A stretch of 33,702 nucleotides of DNA from NCBI GenBank assembly GCA_020072925.1, contig JAIQGA010000063.1, positions 1 through 33,702 of the forward strand, written 5' to 3'. The stretch is from Terriglobia bacterium (GTDB taxonomy: Bacteria; Acidobacteriota; Terriglobia; UBA7540). Positions 24,348-33,702 of the stretch are shown in pieces. Made by a program: the position numbers and the translations under genes. A model generated the notes under the pieces. That model was given only the letters and a program-made list of their open reading frames with translations. It did no database searches and was not told the DNA's origin. Numbering within the stretch: position 1 is the stretch's first letter; each line of letters begins with the position of its first letter.

Positions 24348-24622
24348 AGCTCCCTGGGAGCGCCTTTGCTCGATGGCCCGTAACGATACGGCCCGCCTGG
24401 CGCGGCACGTCAGCGGGACGCTTTCCAGCGGGCCGCTCCAAATGCCTTAAGGGCCGCCGAATCCACAGGTTTCCCCTCCCCTCCGCCGCTCGCCAGACTC
24501 CCCACGAGAAAAAACTACTTCCGGGAAGAAATAAGCTAGAATACGCCGCAAGCTTCAGGTAGGAAGATCAGAAGCCAAGCAGCGGTTCGTTGGTCCATTG
24601 CGTTGAAGAAGGCAGACCTGGC

Positions 24623-27600
24623 GTGGCGGCATCGCTTCTAAAGCGCTGGCTGAGTCGCCTGGCTCCGGTTTATCCGGGCGAGGGCGCGGTCGTGATTCTG
24701 TGCCTGGCAGTGAACTTTCTCGTTGTGGCCGGCATCATGTTCGGCCGCAACGCCCGCGATTCCCTCTTCCTGGTTTATTTCGGCGTGCAATACCTGCCCC
24801 ACATGTATTTCGCGAACGCGGTGTTTCTTGTCTTGACGTCGCTGATCTACACCACGCTGGTGGACCGCATTGAGCGCGGCAAATTCCTGGGCGGCCTCTC
24901 CGTGCTTTTCGTCGCCAGCTTGCTGATCAGTTGGGTGTTTCTGCGGACGCATCTTCGGCACGGCTCGTGGTTCTTCCCGATTTTCTATATCGAATCGCAA
25001 ACGCTCTGGTATTTCTCCCTGATGCAATTCTGGACGTTCGTGGGGGACTTATTTGACACCCGCCAGGCCAAACGGCTCTACCCCCTGCTCGCCGTGGGCT
25101 CGCTCCTGGGCATGATCGGCGTGGGCCTGGGCAGCAAATCCATCGTGCTAGCGCTGGGCACGGGAAACCTGCTGGTGGTTTGGGCAGGGATCATCATGGC
25201 CGCAACCATTTTCGGGGGCATCGCCTTCCGCCGCTACCGCATCGTGAAGGACGCGCCGAAATTGGAAGAGGCCGTCGCCCACGCCAAGGCCAAAGCCTCC
25301 GAGTGGCACAAAATCAAATCAGGACTGGAAGAAGTGGGGCGCGAGCCGCTCTTGCGCTCCATGGCCGGATACACCCTGCTGTTGTGGACACTCTTCTCGG
25401 TCGTCGATTTCTGCTTCAAGAACACGATGAAGGACATTTACCCCAATGCTGATGACCTCACCCGATTTTTCGGGAACTTCATTGGCGCGCAAGGGGTCAT
25501 CTGCCTCGTCGTGCAGGTTTTCTTTACGCGCGCCGTGATCGCCCGCCTGGGTGTGGGAACGACGATCAACTTTCACCCTGCGTTCCTGCTTGCCGGCACC
25601 GCCTGGATGGGCTTGCGTTACGGATATGCTTCGGTGCTCACCACCAAGCTCGGCGACGCCTCCATGCTCTACACTTTTTCCGACTCCTCCTACCAGTTGC
25701 TCTACAACCCCGTGCCCCCCGAACGGCGCGCGCAGGTAAGGGGGTTCATTGAAGGATATATCCGGCCCCTTTCGCTGGCCGCCGCCGGCGCTTTTATCCT
25801 GGTGGCCAACAATTATCTGAAGCCCTTGTACGCTTGGGGCCACACGATCGTGACCGGGCAGCAGCTTTCCTGGGGCGCGCTGGCTGCGGCCGTGGTCTGG
25901 CTGGGTTTCGCATCGACAGCCAAGAAGGGGTACATCCGGGCGTTGCTGCGGAATTTGCAGGGCGATCACCTCGCCCTGCGCCAGGCCGCCGCCACGGCGC
26001 TCGGCAGCATGAAGGAACCGGCAAACTTGCTTCTTCTTTCCCAGACACTTCAAAGTGAGGATCCGGCGAGGGTGGTGACGGCTGTAGCCTTTCTGGGTGA
26101 TTTCGGCCAAGTCGATGCCGCCGCCGCGATCGCGGGGCTACTCTCCCACCCTGACTCGCACGTGCGCGCCACTGCCGCTTCCGCGCTAGGGAAGCTGGCG
26201 CCAACGAAGTATGTGGACGCGCTTCTACCCCTGGTGGCCGATGCCGACCCCCGCGTCCGCGCTAATGCCGTGGAGGCGCTGGCCGCAAGTCACGATCCAT
26301 CCCTGCCGGAACGATTGCGCCCGCTTCTTCACGACCCGGCGACGCGCGTTCGCGTTAACACCTTGCTTTGCCTGGCCTCCCTTGAAGAAGGGCCCGTCCC
26401 GGCGGAATGCCTGCCCTTGCTCAGTGAACTGGCGCAGGGAGACGCCACCGCGCGAGCCACCGCCACCTACGCGCTGGGCGGCTTGACCATGGATGCCTCC
26501 GTGGATCTGCTCACGGAACTGCTCCGCGATCCCGAACTCTCCATTCGGTGTGATGCCGCCAAGGCTCTGGGGCGCGTCGGTTCTACCCGCGCGATCGGTC
26601 CGCTGGTCGAGGCGCTGGCCGGACATTCGGAATTGCGGCGCGCCGCGCGCCGAAGCCTCGCCGCCATACTGGAACGGTGCGGGAACGTCTGCATTCAGGA
26701 AATATCACAGACCGCGCTCAGTTCGCCGCGCCCCGAAATCCGCAGCGAACTGGCCGACGTGCTGGGCCGCATCAAGGATTCCCAGGTCAACGCTCCACTC
26801 GTCGCCCTGCTCAAAGACCCGGAATGGCGCGTGCGCTGGAAGGTGCTCAAGTCCTTCGACCGTCGCGCGCACGTGGGCCCGTTGCCCGAAAACGTTCGCG
26901 CGGCTCTGTTCCAGTATGCGAGCGATGAGTTGACCGCATTCCGGCAAAACCTCCTGAACGCGCAGGCTCTGGTCCCGAAACCTGCGAGCGAATCTGAGCG
27001 ACTCCTGGCGCTGGCGCTCTCCGAGGACCGGGTCAAGATCGAAGAACGAGTCTTCCATATGCTGGGCATCCTGTGCGGGCGAGAACGGATGCTGGTCATC
27101 TTCGAGAAACTCAACTCCGGTGATGCCCGGCAACGCGCCGACGCGCTCGAAGCCTTGGACACCCTGGCGCCGAAGGCCATCGGGCGGCAAGTTCTGGGAT
27201 TGCTCGAGCCGGCGCCCCTGCCCGCCACAGGGCCGTCGCAATCTGCCGCGCCGGCGATCGGGGCGTTGGCGCACCACACCAAGCCCTGGCTGCGCGCCTG
27301 CGCCGCCTTTTACCTGGGCAGGCATGCGAACGGCAATGCCGTTTCACTGCTCCAAACGCTCCTCGCCGACCGCGACGAAATCGTACGGGAGACAGCCCTG
27401 TTTGCGGGCTGGCAGGCTCTGCAGAGCGCCTGGCGCCCGCAAGTGAAAGCGGCGGCCGAATCCTCCGATCCCGCGCTCCAGCGCATCGCGCAACGCATTC
27501 TGAGTCTGACTTCGCCCACATCGGACCGGACATCGCCTCCGCCCGCAGAAGGGAGTACGCCCATGTTTCTCACCGTAGAGAAAGTGCTGCTGCTGAAATC

Positions 27601-28033
27601 CGCGCCGTTGTTTGCCGGGCTCGACAGCGAAGAATTGGCGGCGCTCGCCACGATCGCGCTCGAGAAGGAGTTCGCATCCGGCGAAGTCATTTTCGAGCAG
27701 GATCAGCCCGCCCACCATTTGTATGTCCTGATCCGAGGCAAGGTGGAAGTCCTTCACCACGCGGAGTCCACCGACTATCCCATCGCCACGCTGGGCGAAA
27801 AGGAATGCTTCGGAGAAATGGCCATCCTCGACGACCAGCCCCGCTCCGCGACCATCAAGTCGCTTGAACCCTCCACCGTGCTCAAAATCGACCGCGACAG
27901 TTTTCGCGAGCTCATCTACGAACGCCCCCAGATCGCTTTTGCCATCTTCAAAATCCTCAGCAACCGCCTGCGCGTGAGAAACCTCGAAGTTGAACACGTC
28001 GCCAGCCTCGACAGCTCGCGCCATTACGTGTGA
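24623..28033 (+). CDS. ADP/ATP-carrier-like transporter fused to HEAT repeats and a cyclic-nucleotide-binding domain
   Basis: This 1136-residue fusion has three parts. Residues ~20-445 hold about twelve membrane helices of the nucleotide:nucleotide antiporter/MFS type (NFLVVAGIMFGRNARDSLF, DSSYQLLYNPVPPERRAQVRGFIEG). Residues ~450-950 are HEAT/PBS-type helical repeats (HPDSHVRATAASALGKL, DPRVRANAVEAL, DPELSIRCDAAKALGRV). Residues ~985-1110 are a CAP-type cNMP-binding domain with the phosphate cassette FGEMAILDDQPRSATI. Similar proteins occur in several bacterial phyla but transport is untested. GTG 24623 has ribosome site GAAGG; TTG 24590 is an alternative. The gene is monocistronic and converges on fur, with a hairpin (28045-28069) between. 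Confidence 0.88.
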   Translation: MAASLLKRWLSRLAPVYPGEGAVVILCLAVNFLVVAGIMFGRNARDSLFLVYFGVQYLPHMYFANAVFLVLTSLIYTTLVDRIERGKFLGGLSVLFVASLLISWVFLRTHLRHGSWFFPIFYIESQTLWYFSLMQFWTFVGDLFDTRQAKRLYPLLAVGSLLGMIGVGLGSKSIVLALGTGNLLVVWAGIIMAATIFGGIAFRRYRIVKDAPKLEEAVAHAKAKASEWHKIKSGLEEVGREPLLRSMAGYTLLLWTLFSVVDFCFKNTMKDIYPNADDLTRFFGNFIGAQGVICLVVQVFFTRAVIARLGVGTTINFHPAFLLAGTAWMGLRYGYASVLTTKLGDASMLYTFSDSSYQLLYNPVPPERRAQVRGFIEGYIRPLSLAAAGAFILVANNYLKPLYAWGHTIVTGQQLSWGALAAAVVWLGFASTAKKGYIRALLRNLQGDHLALRQAAATALGSMKEPANLLLLSQTLQSEDPARVVTAVAFLGDFGQVDAAAAIAGLLSHPDSHVRATAASALGKLAPTKYVDALLPLVADADPRVRANAVEALAASHDPSLPERLRPLLHDPATRVRVNTLLCLASLEEGPVPAECLPLLSELAQGDATARATATYALGGLTMDASVDLLTELLRDPELSIRCDAAKALGRVGSTRAIGPLVEALAGHSELRRAARRSLAAILERCGNVCIQEISQTALSSPRPEIRSELADVLGRIKDSQVNAPLVALLKDPEWRVRWKVLKSFDRRAHVGPLPENVRAALFQYASDELTAFRQNLLNAQALVPKPASESERLLALALSEDRVKIEERVFHMLGILCGRERMLVIFEKLNSGDARQRADALEALDTLAPKAIGRQVLGLLEPAPLPATGPSQSAAPAIGALAHHTKPWLRACAAFYLGRHANGNAVSLLQTLLADRDEIVRETALFAGWQALQSAWRPQVKAAAESSDPALQRIAQRILSLTSPTSDRTSPPPAEGSTPMFLTVEKVLLLKSAPLFAGLDSEELAALATIALEKEFASGEVIFEQDQPAHHLYVLIRGKVEVLHHAESTDYPIATLGEKECFGEMAILDDQPRSATIKSLEPSTVLKIDRDSFRELIYERPQIAFAIFKILSNRLRVRNLEVEHVASLDSSRHYV

Positions 28034-31452: not shown

Positions 31453-31947
31453 TTAGATTGGTTCGGGTGCCATGGCAATCGCCTCCTCAACAACCCTTTC
31501 AGAGACCCGGAAGCGGAGGTCGTGCCGAAGTTTGTGCACTAAAGCCCGGGGCTCGTCGGCCCGACCCTCGAGGTGCAGGCGGGCCAGGAGCCGCACTGTG
31601 CCCACAGACTTGAAGCCCTTCTTCTCGCCGATCTCGCGAGCGCGTTTTTCATCGCCAATGAAGAACATGGCGGCTTTTTCCTCAGCTTGGATGAGAGCTT
31701 CGGCTTCGCCTTTGTCGAGCTCGGCACTGAGTAAGCTCACATTCGTCTTATCGGCCGCCGTGCATCTTGCAAAGATTCTGGTCCGGTACAACTTTTTGAG
31801 GCGGTAACGGAACCTTCCTATTTTGTTGACCTCTTGTTGGACCGCCCGCGGTACGAACACCACATCAAAGAAGAGCGACAACTCGGCAGAGAGGCCAAGG
31901 TGTGTGAGGCTGATTAGTGAGGAGCTGTCAACGACGGCGATGCGCAC
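31453..31947 (-). CDS. PIN-domain-like (DUF3368 type) putative nuclease
   Basis: This 164-residue protein has PIN-type acidic positions: Asp7 in VVDSSSLISL, Asp78/Glu81 in LDKGEAEALI, and Asp99 in FIGDEKRAREIGEKKG. The latter block with SVGTVRLLARL is typical of DUF3368/PIN proteins related to VapC ribonucleases. No VapB-like or UPF0175 antitoxin is adjacent. Instead, its GTG start at 31947 shares a base with the TAG stop of the TIR gene (TAGTG), giving very tight coupling. That suggests the two proteins work together as an effector pair. RNA cleavage is the family expectation, not shown. Confidence 0.82.
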   Translation of the reverse strand: MRIAVVDSSSLISLTHLGLSAELSLFFDVVFVPRAVQQEVNKIGRFRYRLKKLYRTRIFARCTAADKTNVSLLSAELDKGEAEALIQAEEKAAMFFIGDEKRAREIGEKKGFKSVGTVRLLARLHLEGRADEPRALVHKLRHDLRFRVSERVVEEAIAMAPEPI

Positions 31948-32432
31948 TATTTTTTGCTCAGTGAGAACAGCAAGAGTAGTCCAACCCCGAGTGCCACCAG
32001 GCCGCCGATGGCCTGCGTCTTCTCCTTACTGAGTTGTTGCTCCCTCAGGAATTGGACAATATCGGTTTCTAACTTCCCCGGGTTGCCCCATGGCGAGAAA
32101 GTAAAGACGCGTGGAAATTGGGCAAGCAAGGGATGAGCTTCAAGCGCTGAATGCACGATCGGAATCACCAGCTTGTTCTTTGCCAGGGCGTACCTAAGCT
32201 CCGCCTGGACGGCGGGATGAGCTTGGTTGGTGATAATGGCTAGGACGCAGTCCGAACGGTCCATCGCGCTCCGAACTTCCTCGGGCACGTTCCCTGCCCG
32301 AGGCGGGAGGGGAGAGTCGCGGCGGGGGACATACATCTCGACTCCGTGCGCAGCCGCCAGGGTTTGCAGGCGCCACGCAAGGGCCTGCTCGGCCGGCTCG
32401 AGACTGTAACTCAAGAATACTCTGAAGGCCAT
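31947..32432 (-). CDS. TIR-domain protein with C-terminal membrane anchor
   Basis: This 161-residue protein begins FRVFLSYSLEPAEQALAWRL, a TIR beta-A/alpha-A signature. It continues with DCVLAIITNQAHPAVQAELRYALAKNKLVIPIV; Glu78 in QAELRYA is the likely catalytic NADase residue. After the domain, residues ~141-157 form one hydrophobic helix (AIGGLVALGVGLLLLFSL) ending in Lys-Lys, a tail anchor. TIR proteins of bacteria often act in defence by hydrolysing NAD or making cyclic ADP-ribose signals. It is 35 bases downstream of the methylase stop and overlaps the PIN gene by one base. A TACAAT lies 9 bases upstream of the ATG, so an own near-leaderless promoter is possible. Confidence 0.85.
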   Translation of the reverse strand: MAFRVFLSYSLEPAEQALAWRLQTLAAAHGVEMYVPRRDSPLPPRAGNVPEEVRSAMDRSDCVLAIITNQAHPAVQAELRYALAKNKLVIPIVHSALEAHPLLAQFPRVFTFSPWGNPGKLETDIVQFLREQQLSKEKTQAIGGLVALGVGLLLLFSLSKK

Positions 32433-32467: not shown

Positions 32468-33625
32468 CTAGTGTTGTTCTTCGATGATTTTCCGCTCTTC
32501 GTCCGTGATGCCGTAAAGCTCGTAAACCAGGTCGTCGATTTCGCGGTCGGTGGAGGTGATGTCGCGGTCCAGGCGCTCGATCTCCGAGGGCGCCAGCTTG
32601 CCGGAGTTCTTTTTCCTGTTCAACTCCAGCATGCGCTCCACCAGCGTCACCATCTTGTCGTGCCGCGCTTTATCTCCGAGATCGGATATGTTGATGGGGT
32701 GGATGGGGAGGCTGCGAGTTTCCTTGAGAACGATTTTTGGAAAGTCGTCGCGCTGCGCGATATTTGATCGGTGAAGAAAATACCAAGACATAAGCTGGCT
32801 GTTGAGGCAACCCAGCAGATATCTCAAGTCCGGCCCGCCTTCCATCCCTAAGATGCTCTGCATCGATTTGTTCGTGACGAAATCCTCGGTTGTCTTAACG
32901 GCCTGTAACCGAAATTGCCGACTTATGAGTTCACGCAGGAGAAGCCGGGGGCCTTTGAAATACCGCTCAGGTTTCGGCTCAGCGAGACTTTCGTCAAATC
33001 TTATGTATTTTATCGGCCCAGGATCTAGTGAGTATCTGCGCACTGTCCCGTCGAACGCTCGAAGACTGTGTGGATGGGCTGCCTTTTCGGTGAGACCGAA
33101 CGGAGTTACGCCCCTCTGAACGTCCGCGAAATCTTTCAGGGGTTTCCCCGCGCTTTGTATTTTTGTGATGAGTGCTGCAGAGAAGGTATCCGCATAGGTC
33201 AAAAACTGATCAGACCCGCCCGCAAACCAGGAGGTGAACTCCGCAGCGTTGGTTTCTTGTTCAAACTCTTTGATGTCGGCGATTTTGTATCGTTTTGGAA
33301 AGGTCTTCAATCTCACGGGACACGCGCTCTGGCGGGGCCAATCTAGCGGCTTCAAACGCTTTACCACAACAAAAATCGTCGTGTCGACCCAAGCTTCAAA
33401 CACGTCGTAAGGCAGGTTCACAAATACCTGTGGGTCAGCGCAACGTGCCAGGTGTCTTCGGAGGGAGCCAAACCGGGCCCCGCTGTACCAACCAGTCGGC
33501 ACAATCAATGAAATGCGGCCTGGCGGCTTGCATAGTCTGATTGTCTTTTCTATGAAAAGTCCGTAAGGGGTTAAGCCACAATAAAGTTTACCTTTGATTG
33601 AAATAATGTGGCATGATGGCCTCAT
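32468..33625 (-). CDS. N6-adenine DNA methylase / type IIG-like enzyme, N-terminally truncated
   Basis: The 385-residue frame is the C-terminal part of an Eco57I/TaqI-type methylase. It begins near KGKLYCGLTPYGLFIEKTI, which in complete enzymes lies after the NPPY motif, continues with GRISLIVPTGWYSGARFGSLR, and has a TaqI_C-like target-recognition region (VQRGVTPFGLTEKA, RYFKGPRLLLREL, YLLGCLNSQLMSWYF) plus a C-terminal helix ending in GITDEERKIIEEQ. The SAM-binding and NPPY motifs are missing. An in-frame stop lies just upstream of ATG 33625, and an opposite-strand transposase start overlaps there. Likely an inactive remnant cut by an insertion. Confidence 0.82.
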   Translation of the reverse strand: MRPSCHIISIKGKLYCGLTPYGLFIEKTIRLCKPPGRISLIVPTGWYSGARFGSLRRHLARCADPQVFVNLPYDVFEAWVDTTIFVVVKRLKPLDWPRQSACPVRLKTFPKRYKIADIKEFEQETNAAEFTSWFAGGSDQFLTYADTFSAALITKIQSAGKPLKDFADVQRGVTPFGLTEKAAHPHSLRAFDGTVRRYSLDPGPIKYIRFDESLAEPKPERYFKGPRLLLRELISRQFRLQAVKTTEDFVTNKSMQSILGMEGGPDLRYLLGCLNSQLMSWYFLHRSNIAQRDDFPKIVLKETRSLPIHPINISDLGDKARHDKMVTLVERMLELNRKKNSGKLAPSEIERLDRDITSTDREIDDLVYELYGITDEERKIIEEQH

Positions 33626-33702
33626 GGAGATTGCTCATCGCGCCCTCATGCTAAAGGTGCTTCAAGCGTTGAACGAAGCACAGGCCCGGTGGTATGTGGC
33701 GA
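33624..33702 (+). CDS. ISAzo13-like transposase, start only, partial at right edge
   Basis: The last 79 bases open a plus-strand frame beginning MEIAHRALMLKVLQALNEAQ and RWYVA before the edge. This resembles the N-terminal ALNEAQARW(F/Y)VA helix of ISAzo13-family (Rhodopirellula-type, PF07592) transposases, recalled from the family, not searched. An upstream in-frame ATG lies at 33606. The frame overlaps the start of the truncated methylase on the other strand, consistent with an insertion sequence having landed in that gene. Only ~26 codons are visible, so the assignment needs the neighbouring sequence. Confidence 0.5.
   Translation, partial: MEIAHRALMLKVLQALNEAQARWYVA

Follow-up and report, generated by a model that had tools for sequence, protein, structure and literature searches.

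In this study, we observed that the gene of a predicted PIN-domain nuclease in a Terriglobia bacterium directly follows the gene of a TIR protein with a C-terminal hydrophobic helix, in the position where the sister PIN genes carry a UPF0175 antitoxin gene. We read the pair as a module of toxin-antitoxin-like type: a tail-anchored TIR would have replaced the UPF0175 antitoxin of a DUF3368-like PIN RNase, a reading to which we give a probability of about 0.5. The gene order, the overlap of the genes, the conservation of the active sites and of the tail, the shared inheritance of the two genes and the exclusion of UPF0175 can be read directly from the sequences. The window, by which we mean the whole stretch of DNA analysed, comprises 33,702 nucleotides (assembly GCA_020072925.1, contig JAIQGA010000063.1, positions 1 to 33,702).

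The TIR and PIN genes

Both genes lie on the reverse strand. The TIR gene (31947..32432, 161 aa) starts with ATG and the PIN gene (31453..31947, 164 aa) with GTG, and they meet in the junction TAGTG (31945..31949, reverse strand), in which the TIR stop and the PIN start have one base in common, the coding strand reading ...AAAAAATA and then GTGCGC.... The one-base overlap that the initial annotation of this DNA had pointed out is right in both its coordinates and its junction sequence.

The TIR_2 domain (PF13676) covers residues 5-109 of the TIR protein with 43.2 bits, above the cut-off of 28. Structure prediction of both proteins, proposed as a check in the initial annotation, led to TIR folds for the one and to PIN/VapC folds for the other. 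The AlphaFold2 model of the TIR has a mean pLDDT of 83.4 and its top matches are TIR and DNPH1-type folds. Sequence searches of solved structures gave no match. Foldseek ranked nucleoside deoxyribosyltransferases first, whereas VIA-align ranked plant TIRs first (RPV1: Z 14.1, rmsd 2.6, 136 residues), with DNPH1 / deoxyribosyltransferase folds at Z about 12. An identity as nucleoside deoxyribosyltransferase was set aside because of this VIA-align ranking and because Pfam favours TIR_2, and the protein is retained as a predicted TIR.

The candidate catalytic Glu78 is situated in a helix (H73-84) after the third strand of the model, a helix-C position assigned by topology and not by residue-level superposition, which we take to be the site of the catalytic Glu in TIR NADases. 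When the window TIR was aligned with 10 relatives, 14 columns were invariant across the 11 proteins, Glu78 among them, and it is kept despite TIR identities down to 27-29%; this is the residue singled out in the initial annotation. Q16, R21, L22, Q23, V35 and P36 are also invariant in these 11 PIN-partnered TIRs. The BB-loop motif D-x-x-P-G occurs in three of the seven TIRs without a PIN (L062, L063 and L065), against none of the 11 with one, and the model has low confidence in this stretch (block mean pLDDT 64).

At the C-terminal end, hydropathy indicates a hydrophobic helix at residues 141-159, a 19-residue stretch with a Kyte-Doolittle (KD) mean of 2.25 that ends two residues short of the C-terminus, in agreement with the membrane helix described earlier. 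A tail of the same length, with a mean KD of 1.83-2.64 and 1-3 residues from the C-terminus, was found in 10 of the 11 partner TIRs, the remaining TIR (L060), whose 3' end is disrupted, being outside this survey. The tail could instead serve oligomerisation.

The PIN protein matches the PADLOC family PDC-S70 at E=4e-24 and DUF3368 (PF11848) at 17.1 bits, which is under the cut-off of 27.3. Its model (pLDDT 94.6) has a PIN/VapC fold (best Z 13.1, rmsd 3.1, 117 residues), so that the profile match, the PIN fold and the acidic quartet that characterise PDC-S70 are all present. Acidic residues as expected of an RNase had been recognised from the single sequence. The quartet, D7, E39, E81 and D99, holds across the 11 aligned PINs: D7, E81 and D99 are invariant, and at the position of E39 ten proteins have Glu and one has Asp.

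These features bear on the explanation that the TIR, as in Thoeris, converts NAD to a small molecule that activates the PIN. The TIR fold with its conserved helix-C Glu speaks for it, and Thoeris likewise joins a TIR and an effector in one operon, as described in the available part of PMC12847820. In the available literature, however, Thoeris effectors are SIR2-SLOG, TM-macro or caspase-like nucleotide-binding proteins, whereas the PIN is a single 164-aa domain in which no SLOG, macro or caspase-like domain was matched in PADLOC, NCBIfam or Pfam. Furthermore, ThsB profiles match the window TIR only weakly, at E=0.009 or weaker, and the BB-loop motif is missing from all 11 PIN-partnered TIRs. 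The lack of a recognisable ligand-binding domain in the PIN makes a Thoeris-type signal less likely, and we regard this explanation as decidedly unlikely. The earlier proposal, in which RNA cleavage would accompany a TIR signal or NAD depletion, is weakened by that same lack and by the divergent BB-loop region of the TIR. Direct contact between the two proteins is likelier than a diffusible signal, given that the PIN consists of one small domain with no recognisable ligand-binding part and that none of the PIN-partnered TIRs has the D-x-x-P-G loop. In the accessible text of PMC12847820, the activity of SpbK depends on its BB loop.

Distribution of the TIR-PIN pair

The initial annotation had suggested searching other genomes for the same adjacency, and the pair proved to recur, with 11 distinct pairs whose active sites look intact; the refuting outcome named there, that the genes would seldom be neighbours in other genomes, did not come about. 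An exact-pattern scan of 84,980 species, which also covers other phyla, gave four TIR relatives with 60-68% identity, all from acidobacterial MAGs, and all four have the PIN downstream with the same one-base overlap. Profile searches covered the acidobacterial class and phylum genomes. In 299 class genomes, with the best 12 candidates per genome scored, at least 16 TIR places in at least 15 genomes were found, the window included, and among the matches listed nine of the 16 places have a PIN directly downstream, including all six above 170 bits, which makes the adjacency more than chance. The nine places belong to G000, G441, G451 (one place), G524, G550, G613, G480, G436 and G521, genomes spanning three families (codes f1, f91 and f3); the seven places without a PIN belong to G265, G568, G408, G476, G451 (its second place), G429 and G644. 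Around TIRs lacking a PIN, none was matched at E<=0.1 in 1999 ORFs of 14 loci. As two of the four scan matches are contigs of G451 and G524, the distinct pairs number 11. Phylum searches returned the window and other TIRs with no PIN match in their loci, one of which (L073) ends at a contig edge. It is important to note that the survey is almost wholly one of Acidobacteriota and that most of its genomes are fragmented and probably MAGs.

The 11 pairs, intact or nearly so, comprise eight close ones (group 1) and three distant ones (group 2), and the group 2 TIRs are 27-29% identical to the window TIR; those of L057 and L058 had no Pfam match and were recruited by profile A1 at E about 1e-13. 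The TIR precedes the PIN in all 11. Ten of the junctions are readable and range from -1 to +14 nt: one base is shared in six pairs, the overlap is zero in two, a gap of 10 or 14 nt separates two, and in L060 the TIR end is disrupted. A twelfth pair of the group 2 type, in the single-contig genome G516 (L130/L181), is decayed, with a frame-disrupted TIR and a stop in the PIN.

Within group 1 (eight pairs), both genes show about twice as many differences at third codon positions as at first or second ones, indicating that TIR and PIN are under protein-level constraint. The pairwise distances of the TIRs and of the PINs agree (r=0.95, p=0.0003, 11 pairs), also within group 1 alone (r=0.73, p=0.027). 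Little flanking sequence is common to different pairs. In the 1.5-kb flanks, the sole protein similarity between pairs is that of the window and L007, at and around a restriction-gene remnant, and so no third conserved gene is visible.

No TIR relatives were found in plasmids, phages or viral contigs. PIN relatives comprise one on a Helicobacter plasmid, with UPF0175, and one partial viral match, and none were found in phages. The viral match (L053) is 31% identical over about 62 residues and lies in a 164-kb viral contig.

The place of the UPF0175 antitoxin

In the available portions of the literature, COG2886 (UPF0175) is predicted to act as an HTH antitoxin for PIN genes (PMC2701414), and in Geobacillus a UPF0175 gene is the immediate upstream neighbour of a DUF3368 PIN (PMC6929052); the antitoxin role is itself a prediction in these sources. 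We compared 92 loci of the PIN family, drawn from the best 12 candidates per genome and consisting of 30 loci (L008-L037) and 62 further loci (L119-L180), which cover the other 63 listed places, since L138 has two and its best PIN was scored. UPF0175 stands directly upstream of the PIN in 73 loci and elsewhere in the locus in nine, a TIR is present in nine (the window and the decayed pair included), one locus has neither partner and none has both. The UPF0175 profile was grown from two seeds and applied unchanged, and L119-L180 formed no part of its training. In the first 24 loci (L014-L037), UPF0175 occurs in 22, and the two without it (L015 and L016) are TIR-PIN pairs. The single PIN with neither partner is that of L180 (G479:C153).

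The absence of a UPF0175 antitoxin, noticed in the initial annotation, extends to all pairs: among the 905 ORFs lying up to 3 kb from the 11 pairs, no UPF0175 was matched at E<=10. The same threshold gave none in the TIR-bearing loci of the 92, decayed pair included, which contain 656 ORFs. The UPF0175 partner of the COG2886/UPF0175-PIN toxin-antitoxin is thus missing at the TIR-PIN pairs, and a TIR occupies its place. The other refuting outcome named in the initial annotation, that homologues of the PIN always have a separate antitoxin, is nearly true of the family at large, with UPF0175 in 82 of the 92 loci; in the present clade it does not hold, as the TIR takes that position.

A tree was made of 33 PINs, 11 TIR-partnered and 22 UPF0175-partnered. 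The TIR-partnered PINs form one clade (support 100/99), which under midpoint rooting is nested among the UPF0175-partnered ones at 82/81 and 89/83, branches that are not strongly supported and a root that is a drawing choice. The 11 partner TIRs are separated from the seven other TIRs of the searches at 99/99, with a long-branch warning. Judged from these trees, the membrane-anchored TIR apparently took the place of the antitoxin in a single swap. Within the PINs, C62 and Q87 are present in 11 of 11 TIR-partnered proteins versus none of 22 UPF0175-partnered ones, and H16 in 10 of 11 versus one of 22. These residues, together with the fixed residues of the TIRs, are candidate contact surfaces, as far as sequence comparison can suggest them.

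RNA antitoxins serve some toxin-antitoxin modules, and the PIN might accordingly be an ordinary toxin with an unseen antitoxin, either an RNA or an undetected small ORF, and the TIR a co-inherited passenger. The 11 pairs are nevertheless all kept over deep divergence with matching distances, and the 1.5-kb flanks of different pairs reveal no third conserved gene, which makes this explanation quite improbable. Another possibility is an enzyme-type antitoxin, by which the TIR would modify the PIN, attaching for instance ADP-ribose or a nucleotide, in the way that MNT enzymes modify HEPN RNases. The antitoxin position of the TIR, its invariant catalytic-type Glu78 and the clade-specific invariant Cys62 and Gln87 of the PIN would suit such an enzyme, but the BB loop is divergent and searches of the open-licence literature, in the text available, did not return a TIR antitoxin; we consider this explanation the most improbable of those weighed.

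Genomic surroundings

Upstream of the pair, 35 nt from the TIR start, lies the end of a type IIG restriction-methylation gene (32468..33566, reverse strand; Pfam TaqI_C and the end of Eco57I), coding for about 365 C-terminal residues. With a 948-aa gene of G408 it shares 67% identity over residues 582-947 of the latter. Another contig (C311) of the window's genome carries residues 1-587 of the type IIG protein at its edge, in two pieces. For the ORF in the window, the ORF finder gives 33625 as the start, and its first codons fall in insertion-like sequence. The end of an insertion-like element (33567..33702, forward strand) follows, with an inverted-repeat-like sequence at 33567-33591 and the start of a short ORF, and the contig end cuts the element. 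The 25-base inverted-repeat-like sequence is also present at the left end of C311 (positions 111-135; L100), with 23 of 25 bases equal, and because both contig ends carry these matching bases, an insertion element probably splits the type IIG gene. The DNA methylase remnant of the initial annotation is accordingly the C-terminal part of this gene, with the N-terminal part on C311. The transposase named beside it fared less well: the ORF at the right end has 25 codons and no Pfam match, though the repeat-like ends fit an insertion element.

The initial annotation had also placed the pair in a defence-island setting, for which the support is weak, as restriction genes or remnants were seen beside only two of the 11 pairs, the window and L007, the latter having an upstream fragment of a similar gene. 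None was seen beside the other nine, of which L006 and L004 have one side visible, L006 beginning at a contig edge and L004 ending just past the pair. A scan against PADLOC of 75 hand-chosen neighbour ORFs within 6 kb of the 11 pairs, excluding ORFs with masked bases such as L004:3994-5775, gave 24 families at E<=1e-6, and the only clear defence gene traced among these ORFs is the restriction gene of the window.

Further matches were traced as follows. Those to Pycsar/TIR-effector, PycC and HEAT families come from a 1147-aa protein of the window (24590-28030), in stretches that are not a TIR; its C-terminal part matches Pycsar TIR-effector profiles and its middle a HEAT-repeat profile, and the C-terminal match is probably a cyclic-nucleotide-binding domain, misleading as a defence match. 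The mad3, mad8, AriA and HEC-01A matches were traced to two ABC-ATPase-like proteins (L057 and L058), the mad2 matches to two methyltransferase-like proteins (L058 and L060) and a LolE-type match to a transporter-like protein. PDC-M37B, DolB, TRIP13 and a third mad8 match fall on one ORF beside a group 2 pair (L058:10423-13551), a 1042-aa ATPase-like protein that may be an ordinary Clp-type ATPase, and the PDC-S02 profile matches one neighbour ORF. Reading of the sequences assigned other flanking genes as glycosyltransferase-, ABC-transporter- and formate-dehydrogenase-like. A RES-Xre toxin-antitoxin pair (L057:7362-8086) adjoins a group 2 TIR-PIN pair.

Relatives of the type IIG gene were found in 14 of 298 class genomes at E<=1e-60. 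The 15 regions around these relatives, several of which stop at a contig end, contain no TIR or PIN, and the restriction gene was rejected as an obligate third part. Only in the window, L007, L063 and L065 does a TIR adjoin a type IIG gene or fragments of one. In L063 (5160-9494), a TIR without a PIN, with a hydrophobic tail, stands directly after an intact type IIG gene and is followed by Shedu SduA; in L065 (7456-8876), a TIR without a PIN, with a longer ORF and no hydrophobic tail seen, stands between two type IIG fragments; and in L062 (3316-5441), a TIR without a PIN, with a hydrophobic tail, overlaps the end of a methylase-Mrr fusion. These three placements indicate a clustering of some such TIRs at restriction genes.

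Such placements, in which PIN-less TIRs overlap or abut restriction or methylase genes, agree with the explanation that a PIN idle on its own is recruited or switched on through contact with the TIR, which would sense infection and assemble on the membrane; the two genes would then be an anti-phage effector and no toxin-antitoxin pair. The standing of PDC-S70 as a defence candidate, the retention of Glu78 and the fixed residues peculiar to this PIN clade point in the same direction. Against it, the TIR sits exactly at the antitoxin position of the sister PINs, and no restriction gene was seen beside nine of the 11 pairs, so that activation by the TIR seems to us possible, yet rather unlikely.

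Possible mode of action

The gene order alone fits inhibition and activation of the PIN by the TIR alike. In the toxin-antitoxin-like reading, the TIR would be made first and its tail would insert in the inner membrane; it would then bind the PIN via the clade-specific surfaces and hold it inactive. A cue sensed by the TIR, which might be a phage, the membrane or the NAD/nucleotide state, would alter the assembly of the TIR or the chemistry of Glu78, by which the PIN would be freed or switched on, and the freed PIN would cut RNA and arrest the cell. The module may be anti-phage. It is important to note that a plain antitoxin would need no conserved catalytic-type Glu, and this counts against the antitoxin-like reading; the invariant Glu78 might contribute to the trigger or to an enzymatic neutralisation of the PIN by the TIR. 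We tentatively propose that the TIR may be an antitoxin of the PIN, a membrane-tethered and perhaps catalytic neutraliser. A single replacement of UPF0175 would then have made a stress toxin into a switch that senses infection or the membrane.

The gene of this probable RNA-cutting PIN toxin normally stands 3' of its antidote gene, and in these soil bacteria it stands 3' of the gene of a membrane-anchored TIR. This suggests an undescribed mode of holding and releasing a self-harming nuclease, in which TIR and PIN toxin families, usually studied separately, are joined. TIRs have so far had the roles of sensor, signal maker and NAD-depleting effector, and an antitoxin role, if true, would be new; if the TIR regulates the PIN toxin, TIRs for which no effector is evident might act as antitoxins or switches. 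The swap of partners is also a natural experiment, as one toxin family has two unrelated partners in the same position. With UPF0175 in 82 and a TIR in nine of 92 loci, PDC-S70 is better read in this class as half of two-gene modules.

Comparison with known systems

Among the open-licence papers searched, in the text they offered, no TIR-PIN two-gene module was found; in these sources the partners of PIN toxins are UPF0175, MerR and others, and TIRs occur with SIR2, macro or caspase-like effectors. TPR-GreA/B-C-PIN systems, described in the available part of PMC8195603, have a PIN in a conflict system with TIR among the variable effectors, and their PIN profile matches the window PIN weakly (17.8 bits, cut-off 27.8). 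These systems combine TPR, GreA/B-C and PIN parts, whereas Pfam finds no TPR or GreA/B-C in the window pair. Thoeris is likewise a two-gene unit with a single-domain TIR bearing a helix-C Glu. It differs in its effector, which is SLOG, macro or caspase-like in the literature accessible to us, while the PIN has no recognised nucleotide-binding domain; the TIR here has a hydrophobic tail, and its match to ThsB is weak. PDC-S70, a single-gene defence candidate of PADLOC, has its profile match in common with the window PIN, which is here paired with a TIR; five UPF0175-partnered PINs, when tested, gave stronger matches to its profiles (best E 7e-47 to 6e-42). The COG2886/UPF0175-PIN (VapBC-like) modules have the same PIN family, the same acidic residues and a partner gene just upstream; the partner is there a small UPF0175 protein and here a TIR with a C-terminal hydrophobic helix.
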